Assembly: GCA_022072085.1 (NCBI GenBank)
Contig: JAJVII010000048.1
Coordinates: forward strand, 1-36,784
Direction of reading: 5' to 3'
From: Phycisphaerae bacterium
GTDB taxonomy: Bacteria; Planctomycetota; Phycisphaerae; JAJVII01
Length of the DNA: 36,784 nucleotides
Shown here: piece by piece, positions 2,595 to 30,591 of the stretch
Position numbering within the stretch: the first letter of the stretch is position 1
Layout: the number at the start of each line of letters is the position of its first letter
The notes under the pieces: generated by a model
The model's input: only the letters and a program-made list of their open reading frames with translations
Database searches by the model: none
What the model was told of the DNA's origin: nothing
Position numbers and translations under genes: made by a program

Positions 2595-4562
2595 ATGGAT
2601 ATCCGCGTGGTCACGCACACCCGCCCGGGTCGGCCTGTCCTGGCCCTGGTGCTGATGGCCTTTCTGCTGGCTGCCAGCGTCGCCGCCGCATGGATGGTCA
2701 GCCGCCACAAGGCCGTCGGGACAATCGACCTGGGCACGGCGCTGGAGTTCCCGGGCCTGCCGTTGAAAATCCGCCCGCCCCTGGAGTGGCGCACCACCGG
2801 GCCGATCCCCCAGCTCGCCCAGAGCGATCGCCTGCTGGCCAACGGCGCCCGCCTGCTGGCCCAGTCGTTCGATCCCGAATATTCCCCCGTCGGTGGGGGG
2901 CAGGCTGCCCCGGTCCGTCGGCTGGGCATCTACGTGGCCCGTGGCGTCCCCGGCGACGCCGGCGATGCGCTGGCCCGGCTGCTGAACATCAAGCCCGGCG
3001 ACTGGGAGCAGGAGCTTCGCCACGTGGCCATCGGCCCGCTGCCGGCGCGCCAGATCGTCCTGTCGGGCAGCGGGCCTCAGGGCATGCCGCAGCACATCCT
3101 CCTGCGCGTCGCGCCGCTGGGCGACGGGCACTGCCTGCTGCTGGAGCTGGACTGCGTCGGCCCGCCGATGCCACGCGAGCTGCGGATGATGAACACGATC
3201 GCCGCCAATGTGCACCTCCAGGCGGCCCCGGACGCGTCCGCCGCCGCCGATCTGGGGCTCAAGCTGGGCCCAGCCGGCAACCGCTGGCTGGTCCGGGCGC
3301 GCAACGGTTACGCCCGGCAGTTGACCTTCGTGCCGCTGGCGGCCGACGCGTCGGCTGCCGCGTCGCTGCCCTGGATGGAGATGACGCTGACGGTCGCGCC
3401 GGTGCGCGGCGATCAGGACCTGGCGGCCCTGTTGAGCGACTACGCGCAGGCCGGGCTGGGCGGCATGGGCCTGGGCGGAAGGATGGCGCCTTGGCCGCCG
3501 ATGCTCGTCGCCCCGCCGCTGGCGTCCCAGGCCGATCGGGCCGGCGGGGCCGTCACCGCCGAGACGCTGGGCGGGACCGCGCTGCTGCGCTACCGCCAGA
3601 CCGACGACGACGCCGCCCAGAACACCTGGCTGTTTCACGCCCACGACGACATCGGGACGGTGCGGACCGACCGGGCGGTCTGGCTGCGGGTCTGGTGCTC
3701 GGCTGAGGACGAAGACCGGGCCGTGTCCGCCGCCCGTGAGCTGCTGGCTGGGCTGCAACTGATCGACGGCGGCCACGCCGGGCCTCCGGACGCAGGCGCG
3801 GACCTGTCGGCAGCCGAGGAACTGGGCGCCCGCTGGGTGACAGGGGCTCCCGTGCCGGATTACCTGCGGCAGGAGTTCTCCTGGCCATACGAGATGGTGC
3901 TGGTCGGCCAGCCCGAGACGGTCTTCGCCGAGGCGATCTGGTCGACCTACCGATGGGACCAGACCACCCCGCGCGACGCCTCCGGCGCCGCCGTCCCGCG
4001 CAAGGCGGAGGTGAAGTGGACCCCGCCGCACGCCGACGCGCCGGGCGACTTCGACCAGCAGGCGACACTCTGGGTCGCCGACCGCATCAGCGCCGAGTTG
4101 CGATGCGTCAGCGCGGGCGGGCGGATCGAGATCAGCGGCCGCAAGGGCGGGACGTCCAAGCCGTTCGTCGGGCAGTTCGACCGCCGGACCGCCGACGGCG
4201 GAGCCGACGCCGGCGCGGCTTACGCCAACTATCTGCCCTACCCCATGCTCCGCTTCGCCGCCGCGAGCGTCGCCCACGTCGGACACAACAGCGACGACAA
4301 CAACCTGGCCGCCGCCCAGCTCAGTTTCCGCGTCGCCGGTCCGTCGGCCGACCGGCTGGCCCGGGTCTTCATCCAGCCCGGCCCGGACAACCGCGCCGAG
4401 CAGCCGCAGGCGCTGGCGTGGTTCGACTACGACCCCGACCCGGTGCTGATCGAGTTCCCCGCCAAGGCCGACCAACCCGAGCTGTTCGCCCAGGGCTGGT
4501 GTCTCTGCCAGGTCAAACGCGCCGGCCGCGGCGCCCAGGTCCGCATCATCCCGCGACAGTAG
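2595..4562 (+). CDS. Hypothetical protein with N-terminal membrane anchor
   Basis: This 655-residue protein is not recognised. A single hydrophobic segment at about 14-34 (LALVLMAFLLAASVAAAWMV) follows basic residues, which suggests a signal anchor with the remainder outside the cytoplasmic membrane. The rest is rich in Ala, Gly, Pro and Asp with no cysteine cluster, no catalytic signature and no clear internal repeat. It starts 10 bases after the cysE stop and is likely cotranscribed. Its stop is only six bases from the convergent PL22-like stop. Function unknown; the wording recalls large planctomycete envelope proteins, but nothing here proves that. Confidence 0.8.
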   Translation: MDIRVVTHTRPGRPVLALVLMAFLLAASVAAAWMVSRHKAVGTIDLGTALEFPGLPLKIRPPLEWRTTGPIPQLAQSDRLLANGARLLAQSFDPEYSPVGGGQAAPVRRLGIYVARGVPGDAGDALARLLNIKPGDWEQELRHVAIGPLPARQIVLSGSGPQGMPQHILLRVAPLGDGHCLLLELDCVGPPMPRELRMMNTIAANVHLQAAPDASAAADLGLKLGPAGNRWLVRARNGYARQLTFVPLAADASAAASLPWMEMTLTVAPVRGDQDLAALLSDYAQAGLGGMGLGGRMAPWPPMLVAPPLASQADRAGGAVTAETLGGTALLRYRQTDDDAAQNTWLFHAHDDIGTVRTDRAVWLRVWCSAEDEDRAVSAARELLAGLQLIDGGHAGPPDAGADLSAAEELGARWVTGAPVPDYLRQEFSWPYEMVLVGQPETVFAEAIWSTYRWDQTTPRDASGAAVPRKAEVKWTPPHADAPGDFDQQATLWVADRISAELRCVSAGGRIEISGRKGGTSKPFVGQFDRRTADGGADAGAAYANYLPYPMLRFAAASVAHVGHNSDDNNLAAAQLSFRVAGPSADRLARVFIQPGPDNRAEQPQALAWFDYDPDPVLIEFPAKADQPELFAQGWCLCQVKRAGRGAQVRIIPRQ

Positions 4563-4568
4563 ATCGGA

Positions 4569-5744
4569 TCACTTCGGCAGCGCCGCCCGGGCGCGGTAGG
4601 CGTTGTTGCGCCCGCCGCCGCAGCCGTCGCGCCCGACGGGCCCATCGGAGTTGAACAGCACGAATTCATCGCCCGGCCAGAAGACCGGGTGCGGGTGGCT
4701 CTTCTGGTCCAGCCAGCCTGTCGAGTGGCGGCACAACGGGGTCATCCCGCTGCGCCCGTCGGCCAGTCGGATCAGCGACAGCCACCCCTCGGGCCCCTTC
4801 TGTTCCCAGTCCTTCCGCGGCCCGCAGTCGCCGATCATCCGGGCGTCGGCGGCGTGGCTGGTCTGCACGTGCATCGGCTGGACGCCGTCGTACCAGAACC
4901 GCCGCTCGTTGCTACCGTCGGGCTCGACCAGGATGTTGGCGTGCCGCCAGGCGTTGGTGCGCGGGTCGTCGCGGACGGCGTATTGCGTCACGACCACGCC
5001 GCGGTCGGTGAAGTATTCGTGCCCGGACCGCTCCAGCAGCCGCTTCTGCGCGATCAGCGGGCGGACCTCCTGCGTGTCGGCGCGGGCGACCCACATCCGC
5101 TGCACCAGGTGCCAGGCGCCCTCGTGGCAGAACAGCACACAGTCCGCGTCGGTCGGGTCGATGCTGACGTGGCTGTACCACCGGCACTCGCCGAAGAGCG
5201 CCTGCGCCCGGCCGTCGGTCACGTCCACGCGCATCAGCACCGAGCGCGGCCGCTGGTAGAGCCGCTCGGCCATGTCCGAGTAGATCTTCCCCGTCTGCGT
5301 GCTGACCGGCAGGTCCTCGACGTAGGCGAAGGCGAGGTATCGACCACAGGAGGAGACCGACAGGATGCCCGGGCGATAGCCGGCCGGGCAGGCGTAGATC
5401 GCCCGGTCGCCCGAGCCGTCCAGCCCGACGCCGCGCAGCTCGCGGTCGGCGAAGTAGTAGACCCGTCCGCGCACCGGGTCCATGCAGGCTCCGCTCGCCC
5501 GCACGCCCCTGGCATCGGTGAGCTGCACGATCCGCCGACCGGCCATGTCGCGCACGAAGAGCTGCCAGGCCCCCGCGCGATCGGAGGCCAGCAGGACGAA
5601 ATTCGCGTCGGCCGACACGATCGGCTGGGTGAAGTAGGGGTAATACGTGTTCGCGACGTCGTCGGTGATCCGCTCGATGGCGACGCCGGTCTGCGAATCC
5701 TCGACGCTGACGGCCTCGACGGGCCAGGTCTGTCCGACGGTCAT
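4569..5744 (-). CDS. Oligogalacturonate lyase-like beta-propeller protein (PL22 family)
   Basis: The 391 residues read as a seven-bladed beta-propeller related to oligogalacturonate lyase, which splits unsaturated oligogalacturonides from pectin inside the cell. Family landmarks are the histidines in WYSHVSIDP (H192), VLFCHEGAW (H207), SGHEYF (H242), MHVQTSH (H292) and the near-terminal SHPHPVFWPGDEFVLFNSD (H350, H352); such histidines hold the metal in characterised members. No signal peptide is seen, consistent with cytoplasmic action. GGAG seven bases before the ATG supports the start. It begins 28 bases after the stop of the reverse transcriptase gene on the same strand, with no terminator between, so the two may share a transcript. 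No functional link is evident. Substrate specificity is uncertain. Confidence 0.8.
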   Translation of the reverse strand: MTVGQTWPVEAVSVEDSQTGVAIERITDDVANTYYPYFTQPIVSADANFVLLASDRAGAWQLFVRDMAGRRIVQLTDARGVRASGACMDPVRGRVYYFADRELRGVGLDGSGDRAIYACPAGYRPGILSVSSCGRYLAFAYVEDLPVSTQTGKIYSDMAERLYQRPRSVLMRVDVTDGRAQALFGECRWYSHVSIDPTDADCVLFCHEGAWHLVQRMWVARADTQEVRPLIAQKRLLERSGHEYFTDRGVVVTQYAVRDDPRTNAWRHANILVEPDGSNERRFWYDGVQPMHVQTSHAADARMIGDCGPRKDWEQKGPEGWLSLIRLADGRSGMTPLCRHSTGWLDQKSHPHPVFWPGDEFVLFNSDGPVGRDGCGGGRNNAYRARAALPK

Positions 5745-12441: not shown

Positions 12442-13534
12442 ACACAAGATCCTCGTTCTCGGGCACGGTGAGGACCACCTTGATGGCCTCGCCCTTCTGC
12501 ATCAGCTTGAACGCCCTGTCGAAGGCCGCGATGGGCATGTGGTGCGTGATGATCGGCTCGAGGTTGATGCGGCCGGACAGCAGGAAGTTCTCCATCTGGA
12601 ACCAGGTCTCGAACATCCGCCGCCCGTTGATGCCCAGCACGGTCGCGCCCTTGAAGATGATATCGTTGGGCAGGTCCATTGCCACCGGGTTGCTGGGCAG
12701 CCCCAGCAGGGCGGCCGTCCCGCCGTTGCGCAGGGCGGCGAACCCGCCGCGGATGGCCGCCGGGTGCCCGCTCATCTCCAGCAGCACCGCCGGGCCGACG
12801 TCGTGGGCGGTCGCCTTGCGGGCCTCGCCGACCCAGTCGGGGTCGTCGGTCCGCAGGGCGAGCCCCGCGCCCAGCTCACGGGCGATCGCCAGCCGCTGGT
12901 CGTTCACGTCGGCGACGATGATCTGCCCGGCGCCGGCTGCCCGGGCGATGGTGACGGCCATCAGCCCGATGATGCCCACGCCGGTGATCAGCACGCTGCG
13001 CCCGCTGACGCCGGCAGCCATCACTGTGTGCATCGCGTTGCCCAGCGGATCGAAGATCGACGCGATCGAGTTGCTGATGGCCGGGTGGACGGGCCAGATG
13101 TTCTGCTCGGGCACGCGGACGAACTGCGCGAAGCAGCCGTCCACGTCGATGCCCAGGATGTCGACCTTGTCGCAGATGTGGGCGTTGCCCGTGCGGCAGG
13201 GCTCGCACTGGCCGCAGCCGATGTGGCCCTCGGCGCTGACCCGGTCGCCCGGGCGGACGTGCTCGACCGCGTCGCCGACGGCCACCACGCGGCCGACGAA
13301 CTCGTGGCCGGTCGTGATGCCCAGGGGGATGCGCTTGGCGCTCCAGGCGTCCCACTCGTAGATGTGCCGGTCGGTGCCGCAGATGCCGGTGTGGGTGACT
13401 GCGACGATCACGTCGCGCGGGCCGAAGCCGGGGACGGGCGTGCCGGGGCTGGCGGTCAGCCCCTCGGTCGCCCGGGTCTTCTTGAGGGCGAACATGTCGG
13501 CGTCGCGGTTGTAGTCAAACCTGAAATCGCTCAT
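12440..13534 (-). CDS. tdh: L-threonine 3-dehydrogenase
   Basis: The 364-residue zinc medium-chain dehydrogenase oxidises L-threonine to 2-amino-3-oxobutyrate with NAD+. Catalytic zinc ligands are C52 in GICGTDRHIYEWD and H77/E78 in TTGHEFVG. The structural zinc set is C107, C110, C113 and C121. The coenzyme motif TGVGIIGLMA follows. GICGTDxHIYxWD is characteristic of threonine dehydrogenases. The start at 13534 has AGGAGG eight bases upstream, so the 13 residues before MFALKKTR are probably real although most family members begin there. It is divergent from an XRE-cupin regulator, which probably controls it. Confidence 0.94.
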   Translation of the reverse strand: MSDFRFDYNRDADMFALKKTRATEGLTASPGTPVPGFGPRDVIVAVTHTGICGTDRHIYEWDAWSAKRIPLGITTGHEFVGRVVAVGDAVEHVRPGDRVSAEGHIGCGQCEPCRTGNAHICDKVDILGIDVDGCFAQFVRVPEQNIWPVHPAISNSIASIFDPLGNAMHTVMAAGVSGRSVLITGVGIIGLMAVTIARAAGAGQIIVADVNDQRLAIARELGAGLALRTDDPDWVGEARKATAHDVGPAVLLEMSGHPAAIRGGFAALRNGGTAALLGLPSNPVAMDLPNDIIFKGATVLGINGRRMFETWFQMENFLLSGRINLEPIITHHMPIAAFDRAFKLMQKGEAIKVVLTVPENEDLV

Positions 13535-13567
13535 GCGAAGAACCTCCTGCGTTGGTAGACTATGTTA

Positions 13568-13595
13568 TTGTGGACGGAAGGCCGTCCGATATACA
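13568..13595 (+). promoter_or_regulatory. Promoter with operator-like palindrome, XRE-cupin gene
   Basis: TTGTGG (13568-13573), a 16-base spacer and TATACA (13590-13595) form a plausible promoter. The palindrome GGACGG-AAGG-CCGTCC (13572-13587) sits between the -35 and -10. A repressor there would block RNA polymerase. A TATAAT on the minus strand (13614-13609) may serve tdh, without a clear -35. Autoregulation and control of tdh are inferred. Confidence 0.4.
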
Positions 13596-13626
13596 AGACA
13601 AAAATTCCATTATAGGGGAATTTTTC

Positions 13627-14226
13627 ATGGCCCGCCGAAAGGCCCCCTCCCCCGACACCCAGGTGGACGCCCAGGTCAGCCGCAACCTCGGACAGCAGGT
13701 CCGGCAGATGCGCAAGGACCGCGGCTGGACGCTCCAGGAGCTGGCGGCGGCGTCCGGGGTCAGCCGCTCCATGCTCAGCCAGATCGAGCGCCAGCAGGCC
13801 AACCCGACGCTGACCGTCGCGTTCCGCATCGCCAGCGCGTTCGGGGTGGCGCTCAGCGAGCTGGTCGCGTCAGCGGCGGTGCCGGCGGAGATCCAGGTCG
13901 TGCGGGCTGCCGACCGCAGCTACTACTTCCGCTCCGACCGCAACAGCCAGATCCGCACGCTCTCGCCACTGCACCTGGAGAAGCAGGTCGAGTTTTACGA
14001 ACTGCTGCTGCACGCCGACGGCGTGCTGACGTCGGCCGCCCATCACCCGGGCACGCGGGAGTTCCTCACCGTGCAGCGCGGCTCGGTCCGCGTGACCAGC
14101 GCGGGCAACACCTGCGACCTGGAGAAGGGCGACTCGGCCTACTACCCGGCCGACGTGCCGCACAAGATCGCCAACACCGGCCGCGGCTCGGCGCTGACGT
14201 TCCTGGTGGTGACCTATCGAGAATGA
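13627..14226 (+). CDS. XRE-family regulator with C-terminal cupin sensor
   Basis: The 199-residue protein has a helix-turn-helix at about 18-72 (LGQQVRQMRKDRGWTLQELAAASGVSRSMLSQIERQ, split across two helices) and a cupin domain at about 100-195, with the HHPGTREF segment and GDSAYYPADVPHKIAN. HTH-cupin regulators usually sense small molecules such as amino acids and control neighbouring transport or catabolic genes. The start is ATG 13627 with GGGGAA upstream; an in-frame start at 13552 would run through the promoter. It is divergent from tdh-kbl, which suggests control of threonine degradation. The ligand is unknown. Confidence 0.85.
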   Translation: MARRKAPSPDTQVDAQVSRNLGQQVRQMRKDRGWTLQELAAASGVSRSMLSQIERQQANPTLTVAFRIASAFGVALSELVASAAVPAEIQVVRAADRSYYFRSDRNSQIRTLSPLHLEKQVEFYELLLHADGVLTSAAHHPGTREFLTVQRGSVRVTSAGNTCDLEKGDSAYYPADVPHKIANTGRGSALTFLVVTYRE

Positions 14227-14245
14227 GCGACGGCGTCGCCGTCGC
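14227..14245. terminator. GC-rich hairpin between convergent genes
   Basis: GCGACGGC (14227-14234), loop GTC and GCCGTCGC (14238-14245) form a perfect 8-bp hairpin immediately after the XRE-cupin stop codon. There is no T-run, so it would be a Rho-type stop or a stabiliser. Confidence 0.45.
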
Positions 14246-14271
14246 AAGTGACGGGGCTTGGACGAGATCAA

Positions 14272-14670
14272 CTACGCATCGGGCGCGGGGGAGAGCGGGT
14301 TGCGGACGATGACGTGTTCCTCGACGACCTTGCCGCCCACCAAGTGCTCCTCGATGATGAGGTCGAGGACTTCCTCGGTGCAGTGGCCGTACCAGACGCC
14401 GTCGGGGTAGACCACGGCGATGGGCCCCTCTTTGCAGATGTCCAGGCACTTGCTCTGCGAGGGGAAGACGCCGCCGCGTTTGCGCAGGCCGAGCTTGGCC
14501 AGCCGCTTCCGCAGGTGCTCCCAGGACTTCTTCATCTGCTTCCTGCTCGCGCAGCCGGCTTCGTCGCCGTCGCAGCAGAGAAAGATGTGCCGGGTCGCAT
14601 CGGCGATGCCGAGCTTGTCAGCCGCCTTGCGGGCCTCGTCCAGGCCGCCGTGCTTGTCGTGCATGTTCAT
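14272..14670 (-). CDS. (2Fe-2S) ferredoxin, thioredoxin-like fold
   Basis: The 132-residue protein has the four-cysteine layout of the thioredoxin-like 2Fe-2S ferredoxins: HIFLCCDGDEAGC, then about 40 residues on KCLDICKEGP, followed by the typical IAVVYPDGVWYGHCTEEVLDLIIEEHL. This family is related to NuoE and carries one electron between soluble enzymes. In this protein C32 or C33 and C41 would pair with the two cysteines of CLDIC. No partner enzyme is adjacent; a DUF4190-like gene lies 20 bases upstream on the same strand. No strong Shine-Dalgarno precedes ATG 14670, and ATG 14664 is an alternative. Confidence 0.82.
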   Translation of the reverse strand: MNMHDKHGGLDEARKAADKLGIADATRHIFLCCDGDEAGCASRKQMKKSWEHLRKRLAKLGLRKRGGVFPSQSKCLDICKEGPIAVVYPDGVWYGHCTEEVLDLIIEEHLVGGKVVEEHVIVRNPLSPAPDA

Positions 14671-22836: not shown

Positions 22837-22965
22837 CGCCGCAGAGGCGCAGAGACGCTGAGGAGCAGCGGCTTGCAGAAGACTTTGCGTCGGAGTTCTT
22901 CAGCGGGCTCCAGTGCCCGTCTCGATCCAGGTCCTTCCCCTCAGCGCCTCCGCGTCTCAGCGGCG
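22837..22965. repeat. Long intergenic inverted repeat (family copy C)
   Basis: The left arm 22837-22863 and the right arm 22939-22965 are 27 nt each and pair at 23 of 27 positions. They share GCAGAGGCGCAGAG-type sequence with the copies at 24082 and 30613. The unit lies between two same-strand genes. Confidence 0.75.
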
Positions 22966-27943: not shown

Positions 27944-28618
27944 ATGGGCGCAGACGAACAGGTCGTGACGCTCCTCAAGTTCGCCCTCACCATCGGGCCG
28001 ATCGCCGTCTATTTCCTCGCCCTGGGCCTGCTCAATGCCCAGTCCCGCCCCCAACTGATCACCGGACGGGCCGACTTCTCGCTGTTGGCCGTCGTCTTCT
28101 TTCCCATCCTGGTCTGGGTCCTGCTGCTGGTGGTCAACCTCGGCTGGATCGTGCTGGCGATCGTCGCGTTCGCCGCCGGGCTCGGTTTCTACTGGATGAT
28201 GCCGCGGCGGCAGACCTCCTGGGTCGTCTACAACGTCGGCGAGCGGCAGTTCAGCCGGGCGCTGGTCCGGGCCCTGGAGCGGCTGGGGCTGGCCAGCGAG
28301 CCGATGCCCGCCGACCCGCCGGGCCACCCCGTCCTGCACGTGCCGGCCCTCGGGCTGCGGGTGCGGCTGTCGCCCTTCCCCCTGCTGCGAAACGTCACCT
28401 GCCGCTTTGAGCGGACCGACGGCCAGCCGATCGAGCCGGCCGACCTGGCCTCGCTGCTGGCCGGCCTGCGCGATGAACTGGAGACGACCAGCGCGATGCC
28501 GACGGCGTCGGCGGCCTGTTTCCTGCTGATCGGCACGGTGATGTTGTCTGCCCCGCTGCTGCTGATGGCCCGCCACATGGACGAGATCGTCCGCGTCGTC
28601 CGCAACCTGCTGGCATAA
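27944..28618 (+). CDS. Hypothetical membrane protein
   Basis: The 224-residue protein has hydrophobic segments at about 7-30, 45-68 and 70-85, and another near the C-terminus (about 190-210). A soluble section of about 90 residues between them has no recognised motif. The start is uncertain: ATG 27944 is used, while ATG 27893 would overlap the upstream gene by 23 bases. Neither has a strong Shine-Dalgarno. The stop codon TAA flows directly into the first REP palindrome. Confidence 0.6.
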   Translation: MGADEQVVTLLKFALTIGPIAVYFLALGLLNAQSRPQLITGRADFSLLAVVFFPILVWVLLLVVNLGWIVLAIVAFAAGLGFYWMMPRRQTSWVVYNVGERQFSRALVRALERLGLASEPMPADPPGHPVLHVPALGLRVRLSPFPLLRNVTCRFERTDGQPIEPADLASLLAGLRDELETTSAMPTASAACFLLIGTVMLSAPLLLMARHMDEIVRVVRNLLA

Positions 28619-28681
28619 AAAAGTGGACCAGGTCCACTTTTTCCGCTACGATCCCAGAAAAGTGGACCTGGTCCACTTTTT
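28618..28681. repeat. REP pair upstream of RAYT
   Basis: Two palindromes of the form A-rich, GTGGACC-N-GGTCCAC, T-rich. The first (28618-28642) has centre A, the second (28658-28681) centre T. They are separated by 15 bases. The same pair recurs after the RAYT gene. Confidence 0.9.
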
Positions 28682-28693
28682 GGGGAGGCGGCG

Positions 28694-29395
28694 ATGCCGA
28701 GACGGCGACGGGTGGCTGCGGGCGGAATGGTCTACCACGTCATCAACCGAGCCAATGCTCGCGTGCCGATCTTCGAGAAGCCCACCGACTACCGGGCGTT
28801 CCTCAGAATCCTGGCCGACGTCCAGCAGTTGATTCCCATGCGGATTCTGGCCTACTGCGTCATGCCGAATCACTGGCACATGACGCTGTGGCCGATCGGG
28901 GACGGCGACCTCGGCCGATTCATTCATCGCCTGACCGTGACACATGTTACGCGCTGGCATGCCCACCACGAAACCACCGGCAGCGGCCACCTCTACCAGG
29001 GGCGGTTCAAGTCGTTCCCCATCGAAGACGGCATCTACCTGCTGCGGTGCGGCTGCTACGTTGAAGCCAATCCCCTTCGCGCGGGGCTGGTCCAGCGTGC
29101 GGAGGAATGGCCCTGGGGCAGCCTGTGGCAACGGCTTCAGCTCGAGGGGATGCGGGCGGCCGATCGGCCGGTGCTGGCTGATTGGCCCCTCGCGCTGCCG
29201 CGGGATTGGGTGGAGCGAGTCAATCGCCGCGCCAGCGAGGCGGAGATGGAGGAGATCCGCTCGGCCGTCCAACGGGGGCGCCCGTTTGGGTCGACCCCTT
29301 GGCAAGAGGCGACAGCCGCCCGCCTGGGCCTTGAAATGACGCTTCGCCCCATGGGTCGCCCGAAAAAAAGTGGACCAGGTCCACTTTCCGCCTAG
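28694..29395 (+). CDS. REP-associated tyrosine transposase (RAYT, Y1 HUH)
   Basis: The 233-residue protein is a single-tyrosine HUH transposase of the IS200/IS605-related RAYT group. It has the N-terminal GMVYHVINRANARVPIF, the HUH metal site HWH at 60-62 (VMPNHWHMTLWP), GHLYQGRFKS at 98-107 and the likely catalytic tyrosine Y122 in CYVEANPLRAGL. RAYTs act on REP palindromes, and REP pairs lie at both ends of this gene. The final residues KKSGPGPLSA are encoded by a REP palindrome, so the repeat has become part of the gene end. The stop TAG overlaps the convergent ARMT1-like stop. GGGGAGGCGG precedes ATG 28694. Confidence 0.92.
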   Translation: MPRRRRVAAGGMVYHVINRANARVPIFEKPTDYRAFLRILADVQQLIPMRILAYCVMPNHWHMTLWPIGDGDLGRFIHRLTVTHVTRWHAHHETTGSGHLYQGRFKSFPIEDGIYLLRCGCYVEANPLRAGLVQRAEEWPWGSLWQRLQLEGMRAADRPVLADWPLALPRDWVERVNRRASEAEMEEIRSAVQRGRPFGSTPWQEATAARLGLEMTLRPMGRPKKSGPGPLSA

Positions 29396-29419
29396 AAAGT
29401 GGACCTGGTCCACTTTTTT
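29363..29419. repeat. REP pair downstream of RAYT, coding on both sides
   Basis: Palindromes at 29363-29387 (centre A) and 29396-29419 (centre T), separated by 8 bases. The first codes the RAYT C-terminus; both code the C-terminus of the ARMT1-like protein (KKWTRSTF). The two stop codons overlap in CTAG at 29392-29395. Confidence 0.9.
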
Positions 29420-30591
29420 GTGAAGCGGCAGGCGATGTCGAAGAGGCGGCCGCCCAGGCGGCGGGCTACCTCGGGGTCCTTCAGCAACGCCAGCCTGGCC
29501 GTGTCCACCGCGAACTTCGCGTCCACGTTGCTCTCCACGCTGCGGCCCTGACCCTCCAGGATCAGCAGGTCGGCGCCGTCGGCCTCGGCGTTCAGTTCCT
29601 CGCTCGCGTTGGCCAGGTCGAACAGCGGAGCCCGGTTGCCCGTCTCGATCAGCCGAATCCGCCCGGCGGACAGCGCCTCGTCAAGCAACGGGTCTATGAC
29701 CCGGGCAGCCGTGACGACCGCCTCGGCTTCGGGCTTGAGGATGTCGTTCAGGCTCGCACCGGTGTTGCATCCGATGACGACCTCGGCTCCGCGGCCGCGC
29801 GGGCGGGCGGCGGCCATCTCGCGGATCAGCGGCAGGCAGCCCAGCACGAAGTCGCAGCCGGCGTTGTCGACCAGGAAGATGACCTTGCGATAGGCCCACG
29901 CGTCGGCCCGCCAGGCGGCGTGCAGGGCGTCGAAGTCGTCCACCAGCCAGGGCCGCTTGGCCAGCGTTGCCCGCGTCGCGAAGAAATCCAGCCCCTTCTC
30001 GTGATACTGCCGCACCGTCGCCAGGGCCCCGAGGTCGAAGATGTTGCCCGCGAAGACGCCCTCGATCAGCTCAGCCAGCCGCCGGTCCGCGTCGCGGCTG
30101 TCCAGCTCGGCGATCACCTGGGGGTAGAACTTGAGCGCGGCGGCGTTCTCAGCCGCCTTGACGTGCCGATAGGGGTCGGGCCAGCCGGCGGCCCGCAGGT
30201 GCCGGTCGCGGATGTCGTCGAGGCTGAGGATGCTGGTTGCGGTGGATGACGCGGGGACGCGGGGACGCGGTGACGCGGGGAGAGAAGCGGAGGCGGGGCC
30301 GGCTTGTTCGTCTTCCTTCTCCGCGTCCCCGCGTCTCAGTGTCTCCGTGTCTTTCGCGCCCGTCCCCGCCGCCAGCAGGGCCTCCAGCTCCGCGTGGTAG
30401 GGCTTGCGGAAGGTTTCCAGCTCCGCGTCTGTCGGGGCATATTCGTCGCGGATGAGCTGGACGAGCGCCGGCCACATCTCAATGAAGTGCGACACCCAAT
30501 ACCGCCGCCCGGCCGGGTCCGCAGTCAGGTCCCAGTCCGTTGCGATGTAGTGTTCGGGATCGGCGAGCAGGGCAAACATCAGACGCTCCAT
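29392..30591 (-). CDS. ARMT1-like damage-control phosphatase (DUF89) with internal repeat insertion
   Basis: The 399-residue protein belongs to the DUF89/ARMT1-like metal-dependent phosphatases: FLVDNAGCDFVLGCLPLIREM carries the DNxG metal and substrate motif, and GADLLILEGQGRSVESN the second conserved block. Family members hydrolyse damaged sugar phosphates or related metabolites. Between FRKPYHAELEALLAA and SILSLDDIRDRH there is a low-complexity stretch of about 43 residues coded by an inverted repeat, apparently inserted without breaking the frame. The last eight residues come from REP DNA. The start at ATG 30591 lacks a clear Shine-Dalgarno and touches the next repeat; a start at about 30579 is possible. 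Confidence 0.8.
   Translation of the reverse strand: MERLMFALLADPEHYIATDWDLTADPAGRRYWVSHFIEMWPALVQLIRDEYAPTDAELETFRKPYHAELEALLAAGTGAKDTETLRRGDAEKEDEQAGPASASLPASPRPRVPASSTATSILSLDDIRDRHLRAAGWPDPYRHVKAAENAAALKFYPQVIAELDSRDADRRLAELIEGVFAGNIFDLGALATVRQYHEKGLDFFATRATLAKRPWLVDDFDALHAAWRADAWAYRKVIFLVDNAGCDFVLGCLPLIREMAAARPRGRGAEVVIGCNTGASLNDILKPEAEAVVTAARVIDPLLDEALSAGRIRLIETGNRAPLFDLANASEELNAEADGADLLILEGQGRSVESNVDAKFAVDTARLALLKDPEVARRLGGRLFDIACRFTKKWTRSTF
30231..30360. repeat. Inverted repeat inside the ARMT1-like gene
   Basis: GACGCGGGGACGCGG at 30248-30262 is the exact reverse complement of CCGCGTCCCCGCGTC at 30321-30335. Flanking AGAGAAG/CTTCTC also pair. The unit belongs to the GAGACACGG/ACGCGGGG repeat style and adds a low-complexity linker of about 43 residues in frame. 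Confidence 0.75.

Follow-up and report, generated by a model that had tools for sequence, protein, structure and literature searches.

A palindromic repeat dimer beside a RAYT-like transposase gene encodes the C-termini of two convergent genes in a Phycisphaerae bacterium

In the genome of a Phycisphaerae bacterium, a single palindromic repeat dimer provides the last codons and both stop codons of two convergent genes, one for a RAYT-like transposase and one for an ARMT1-like (DUF89) protein. The pair lies in a 36,784-nt stretch of DNA (the window; Table 1). We consider it very probable that the locus is a RAYT/TIRYT-type element between convergent host genes, with a right-hand dimer that is translated from both strands and a palindromic word that has spread to 14 places in the genome. 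With one dimer ending two opposite-strand genes, the locus is a small and testable example of protein sequence written by mobile DNA.

Table 1. Features of the RAYT locus, in window coordinates
Feature	Position	Strand	Remarks
Upstream gene, 241 aa	27893..28618	+	No Pfam family; TAA stop (28616-28618) touches the A-run of palindrome 1
Palindrome 1 (upstream dimer)	28620-28640
Palindrome 2 (upstream dimer)	28659-28679		14 nt ahead of the RAYT start
RAYT / TIRYT-like Y1 transposase, 233 aa	28694..29395	+	Y1_Tnp, HUH motif
KKSGPGPLSA, RAYT C-terminus	29363..29392	+	Ten codons, over palindrome 3 and the linker of the dimer
Downstream dimer hairpin	29364..29419	both	Terminator-like
Palindrome 3 (downstream dimer)	29367-29387		Translated in RAYT
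CTAG, two stops	29392-29395	both	TAG for RAYT (+) and for the ARMT1-like gene (-)
ARMT1-like (DUF89) protein, 407 aa	29392..30615	-
KKWTRSTF, ARMT1-like C-terminus	29395..29418	-	Eight codons
Palindrome 4 (downstream dimer)	29396-29416		Translated in the ARMT1-like gene

The palindrome, a 21-nt word of the form AAAGTGGACC[A/T]GGTCCACTTT, occurs four times in the window, as two dimers. An earlier note, made from the letters of this DNA, had described a REP pair after the RAYT gene; the downstream dimer was confirmed, but a second one was found upstream, so that dimers stand on both sides of the gene. The proposal that the downstream pair codes the C-termini of two convergent genes is borne out by coordinates and reading frames, and translation yields both of the tails that had been named. 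The final RAYT codons (CCG AAA AAA AGT GGA CCA GGT CCA CTT TCC GCC TAG) end the protein in ...GRPKKSGPGPLSA, with KKSGPGPLSA as its tail, and on the other strand the ARMT1-like protein ends in ...CRFTKKWTRSTF, where ACA AAA AAG TGG ACC AGG TCC ACT TTC TAG specifies TKKWTRSTF and the stop. A single CTAG indeed serves as both stop codons and constitutes the entire 4 nt overlap of the two ORFs. As the arms of the dimer are 25 nt long, fully complementary and 6 nt apart, both stops fall at the loop of the hairpin.

The only Pfam domain detected in the RAYT protein was Y1_Tnp (PF01797, E 1.2e-10). Its score against the NCBIfam model REP_Tyr_transpos was 74.9 bits, slightly below the cut-off of 80, and the best solved relative was TnpArep (4er8, E 2.7e-6). 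The protein combines the Y1_Tnp fold with an HUH motif and a catalytic Tyr: N59-H60-W61-H62 (an HUH-type NHWH) and Y122 were invariant among 16 aligned sequences, from which two near-duplicates (L071 and L073) of the 17 full-length homologues had been excluded. These 17 were retained from 21 loci after removal of L074-L077, which are distant or fragments. Inverted repeats that are found again elsewhere in the genome border the gene as well (dimers on both sides, 14 places). Each of the 17 homologues has its own word, present as an inverted pair around the gene and different from lineage to lineage. The right-end word begins between -13 and +34 nt from the final base of the stop codon of the RAYT, overlapping the stop in four homologues (L061, L062, L064 and L068) and abutting it in L057. 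Right-end repeats near or over RAYT stops are thus found across the family, which makes the RAYT half of the arrangement in the window an extreme form of an ordinary layout. On the other side of the gene, the word usually lies 30-48 nt before the RAYT start codon (16/17 homologues); the upstream dimer straddles this position, its copies ending 53 and 14 nt before the start. The host has two other Y1_Tnp genes, one without a flanking inverted repeat scoring at least 13 and the other flanked by an unrelated repeat.

As to whether the tails replace or extend the native C-termini, alignments with homologues showed that the repeat replaces, and slightly lengthens, the unconserved and naturally variable ends of both proteins. 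RAYT homologues share a GRP near their ends, mostly as LRPRGRP, followed by 2-19 residues (n = 17), against 10 in the window, and KKSGPGPLSA was found in none of the 17. In the structure model of the RAYT protein, mean pLDDT was 88.4 but the tail was low, with a mean of 63 for residues 221-230 and values below 50 for residues 231-233. The ARMT1-like protein matches PF01937 at residues 129-390 (E 1.4e-35) and had a match in 35 of the 61 genomes searched, its own included; 30 loci were taken, and tails were compared at the 29 non-self loci (34 genomes other than the host had matches). Near their ends these homologues have a conserved pair (mostly [RK][FY]) with a further 1-13 residues behind it, against nine in the window, and KKWTRSTF was present in none of the 29 when read to the stop. 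The alignment with a solved relative, 1xfi_A, reaches only residue 399 of 407, short of the tail. Since both ends are variable and unconserved and the lengths in the window fall within the natural range, the change amounts to a swap of tails and adds no new domain.

A sister genome of the same family (G001) serves as an element-free reference. Its contig C681 carries homologues of the ARMT1-like gene, the 241-aa gene and further upstream ORFs in the same order as the window, and this ARMT1-like homologue, the nearest one, ends in KFEKSSD. It stops at 1610 and the convergent 241-aa homologue at 2330; the 720-bp interval between them contains neither a RAYT gene nor the palindrome and holds an unrelated 140-aa ORF. 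The site is thus free of the element yet not identical, the two genomes being ~52-64% identical at these proteins, and these alignments, with one strain of the host, gave no clear base-level insertion sites. The claim that a mobile repeat now codes for protein on both strands is supported by this pair, which has neither element nor tails, as well as by the absence of the tails from all other homologues compared. The 241-aa protein ends in VVRNLLA in the window and VVSSLFA in G001. With this end kept, the left dimer begins at the TAA and leaves the protein unaltered, so that of the two host proteins the ARMT1-like one alone has a changed end. A scan around the upstream dimer (28620-28679) found no sigma-70-like promoter.

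Beyond the window, the palindrome core GTGGACCWGGTCCAC has 18 exact sites in the host genome (G000, a 5.49 Mb draft of 72 contigs) and the reversed control has none. Allowing up to three mismatches gave 23 sites, of which 20 were taken as real (the 18 exact ones and two GGGTAC variants) and three as chance. The 19-nt word was absent from the 297 other genomes of the class, so that it is present in one of 298. With 18 core sites against none for the reversed control, and the word in a single genome of the class, its recurrence is not due to chance. The 20 copies occupy 14 places, as six dimers and eight singles.

REPs are defined as extragenic, but in the present family translation covers eight of the 14 places, six inside genes and two at C-termini. 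The six in-frame intragenic places are in genes for TsaD (L052) and a GT2 glycosyltransferase (L051), both with dimers, and for a TIGR03960 radical SAM protein (L045), a class III aminotransferase (L049), a sulfatase (L044) and a LuxE/LuxC protein (L048). One of these insertions is in tsaD, generally an essential gene. The C-terminal places are the downstream dimer of the window and an SBF-like transporter (L046) with two copies in its last 24 residues; the end of its G001 homologue is unrelated. For TsaD, GT2, the radical SAM protein and the aminotransferase, 19 homologues per gene were compared from a longer match list. TsaD has 15 extra residues and the radical SAM protein 11, each against 19/19 homologues, while GT2 has 2-10 extra residues against its 19. 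As the GT2 gain is smaller than the ~17 codons of the dimer, either native residues were lost or the length of the loop varies. The peptides SGPGPL, VD[LQ]VHF and WT[RW]STF occurred in none of the 57 homologues of these three proteins; all three carry in-frame palindromic insertions that the homologues lack. In the G001 radical SAM protein, a fragment outside the 19, the loop is ~3 residues longer than in most, so the gain against G001 is smaller. The aminotransferase is a weaker case, with homologues 36-42% identical and a variable loop. In the LuxE/LuxC protein the palindrome stands at residue 409, between the end of the LuxE-like part (Pfam match to 406) and the LuxC-like part (from 521), and may have joined two adjacent genes.

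Of the six extragenic places, five begin within a base of a stop codon, behind genes for TrpB, a BMC protein, an FAD-type ORF, a hydrolase-type ORF and the 241-aa protein of the window; TrpB, FAD-type and hydrolase-type are names that we assume from the look of the sequence. This view is based on ORFs, from which ORFs broken by out-of-frame insertions could escape, and the flanking genes inspected seem complete. One copy (L053) lies between an apparent trpB and trpA, and the contig of the sulfatase gene (12876-14303) carries a further palindrome behind the gene of a shell-type protein with two BMC domains (4113-4721). No tetranucleotide foot or target was common to the 28 outer edges of the repeats, and a C stands outward beside the T-run in 25 of them. 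The idea that the six-frame openness of the word has been selected was rejected, since 12,404 of 20,000 simulated random words of the same build were free of stops.

The dimer might be retained chiefly as a bidirectional terminator for the convergent genes, with the coded tails as a by-product. We regard this as a real but less probable alternative, and one that is compatible with a mobile origin. The downstream dimer has folding energies of -46.2 and -45 kcal/mol on its two strands, which none of 200 shuffles equalled (z -10.9 and -9.7). In a scan of 28400-29700, terminator-like sites on both strands were found only there (five sites against 0.8 expected, by consensus match only), and the preference of extragenic copies for stop codons fits such a role. 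However, termination cannot explain the copies within tsaD and five further genes, and the convergent pair of G001 lacks the dimer. A much less probable explanation is that the palindrome does not move but serves the host as a site for protein binding or chromosome organisation, conserved for binding. Its perfect symmetry and the exact core in 18 of 20 copies would suit a binding site, whereas homologues lack whole codons and not just the motif, as in TsaD, and the word is confined to one genome and flanks a RAYT gene whose homologues each have their own word.

Least probable of all, in our judgement, is that the tails and insertions are artefacts of assembly or of frameshifts that mask native stops. 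The genome is a draft in 72 contigs and a single assembly, but the 14 places have differing, unique flanks, and in TsaD, GT2 and the radical SAM protein both sides of the insertion are homologous and in frame. Arrays of 21-56 nt are, moreover, short for read-based assembly. It is also quite unlikely, if marginally less so than a binding site, that the tails were selected for a function, such as self-regulation of the transposase by the RAYT tail. RAYT tails can matter, since removal of the 13 C-terminal residues from the E. coli enzyme is reported to increase its activity (PMC8266576). Against this, the sequence of the RAYT tail is unconserved in the 17 homologues and model confidence is lowest there, and for the ARMT1-like protein the alignment with the solved relative ends before the tail.

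We therefore favour a mobile element whose right-hand dimer has become coding sequence. The segment from about 28617 to 29420 would consist of a gene for a single-strand (HUH/Y1) transposase with a dimer of the palindromic word on each side, and would have settled between two convergent host genes. On its arrival, the left dimer would have come to lie where the upstream gene has its stop codon, and the right dimer would have formed the last codons of the ARMT1-like gene. As the right dimer also bears the end of the transposase gene, one dimer would be read as protein from both strands, with the CTAG linker supplying the two stops in the loop region of a perfect hairpin, which could terminate transcription from either side. 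Ribosomes on each of the two genes would read the first palindrome and halt at the loop, leaving the second palindrome free to fold. The dimers would be moved as single-stranded hairpins by this RAYT protein or a relative (a lost sister transposase, for example), a mechanism that has been proposed for REPs on the grounds that REPs in single-stranded form are recognised and cleaved by related enzymes (PMC8266576). Copies that break genes would be lost, so that the survivors are those in frame in tolerant loops or tails, where the peptides would be nearly neutral, or directly behind stops. A bolder version, which we find rather improbable, is that coding sequence is a regular habitat of the family: the word would be tolerated in all frames, the transposase frame would run into its right end, and dimers between convergent genes would act as ready-made gene ends (a tail and a stop per strand and a terminator in 56 nt), reshaping protein ends during spread.

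By sequence, the palindrome is not a GTAG REP: GTAG or GTGG stands beside it at 1 of the 28 outer edges, and GTGG is seen only within the paired arm. Untagged inverted repeats surround the RAYT-like gene both in the window and in 17/17 homologues, and the window word has no GTAG foot, which places it, by published definitions (PMC3733652, PMC6006769), nearer to TIRtrons/TIRYTs than to GTAG REPtrons. Some TIRtron/TIRYT repeats are likewise self-complementary and dimeric, and several close RAYT homologues carry GGGGAC-type words, a further likeness to TIRYTs. TIRYT subclass 2.1 has an HTH-type C-terminal domain; in the window RAYT, Pfam detected Y1_Tnp only. The sections of both accounts that were consulted make no mention of intragenic TIR words. 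A transposase that bears its own substrate as codons has a counterpart in the subclass 2.4 tnpAREP genes with in-frame REPs (PMC6006769). The inverted, hairpin-forming doublets, seen at six of the 14 places, resemble REPINs, which are also tied to RAYTs but are described as extragenic and present in hundreds of copies (PMC3116915).

GTAG/CGTC REPs, as described by Di Nocera et al. (2013; PMC3733652), are short palindromes, often dimers, that can be translated in unrelated genes; their ends can give TAG stops, ~10% of them lie at ORF ends, and flanking repeats that overlap a transposase gene at its 3' end (3'ov) were already known. The window family differs in having neither tag, in being coding at most of its places and in a dimer that ends two convergent genes; an untagged (TIRYT-type) palindrome is thus translated in genes just as tagged REPs are. 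Searches of a library of open-licence papers gave no description of a single dimer that ends two convergent genes or of intragenic TIRYT words. New aspects are the family itself (an untagged palindrome with a TIRYT-like transposase), the large proportion of its places that are coding and the sharing of a dimer between two strands. Rickettsia palindromic elements (RPE), which are palindromic repeats translated in frame within genes, are comparable, although their sequences differ from the window palindrome. In the consulted portion of PMC3733652, RPE-4 and RPE-6 were assigned to R. conorii repeats that are filed as CGTC and unassociated with transposase genes, and no tie to a RAYT was shown for RPE-1.

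The words of related RAYTs were also sought in five genomes, where most of the 34 matches listed are intergenic or in doubtful ORFs and two are in Pfam-supported proteins. In one of these (L191), the HATPase_c domain of a histidine kinase (338-1849) contains the RAYT L062 word in frame, with one mismatch; in the other (L169), the word is in the tail beyond a response-regulator domain. These matches suggest that intragenic RAYT words may be a general phenomenon. The histidine kinase gene is directly upstream of RAYT L062.

Two further repeats were noted in the window. A second repeat family (GACACGGAGACACTGAGACGCGGGGACGCGG plus an inverted arm; 30248-30360, minus strand) accounts for ~38 extra residues at about residues 81-118 of the ARMT1-like protein, and at this point the alignment of the G001 homologue passes within 3 nt from residue 80 of the query to residue 119. 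A repeat of 8-nt units of the GAGGCGCA type occurs at window positions 22837, 24097, 24208, 30632 and 30743, with inverted pairs around 24097/24208 and 30632/30743.
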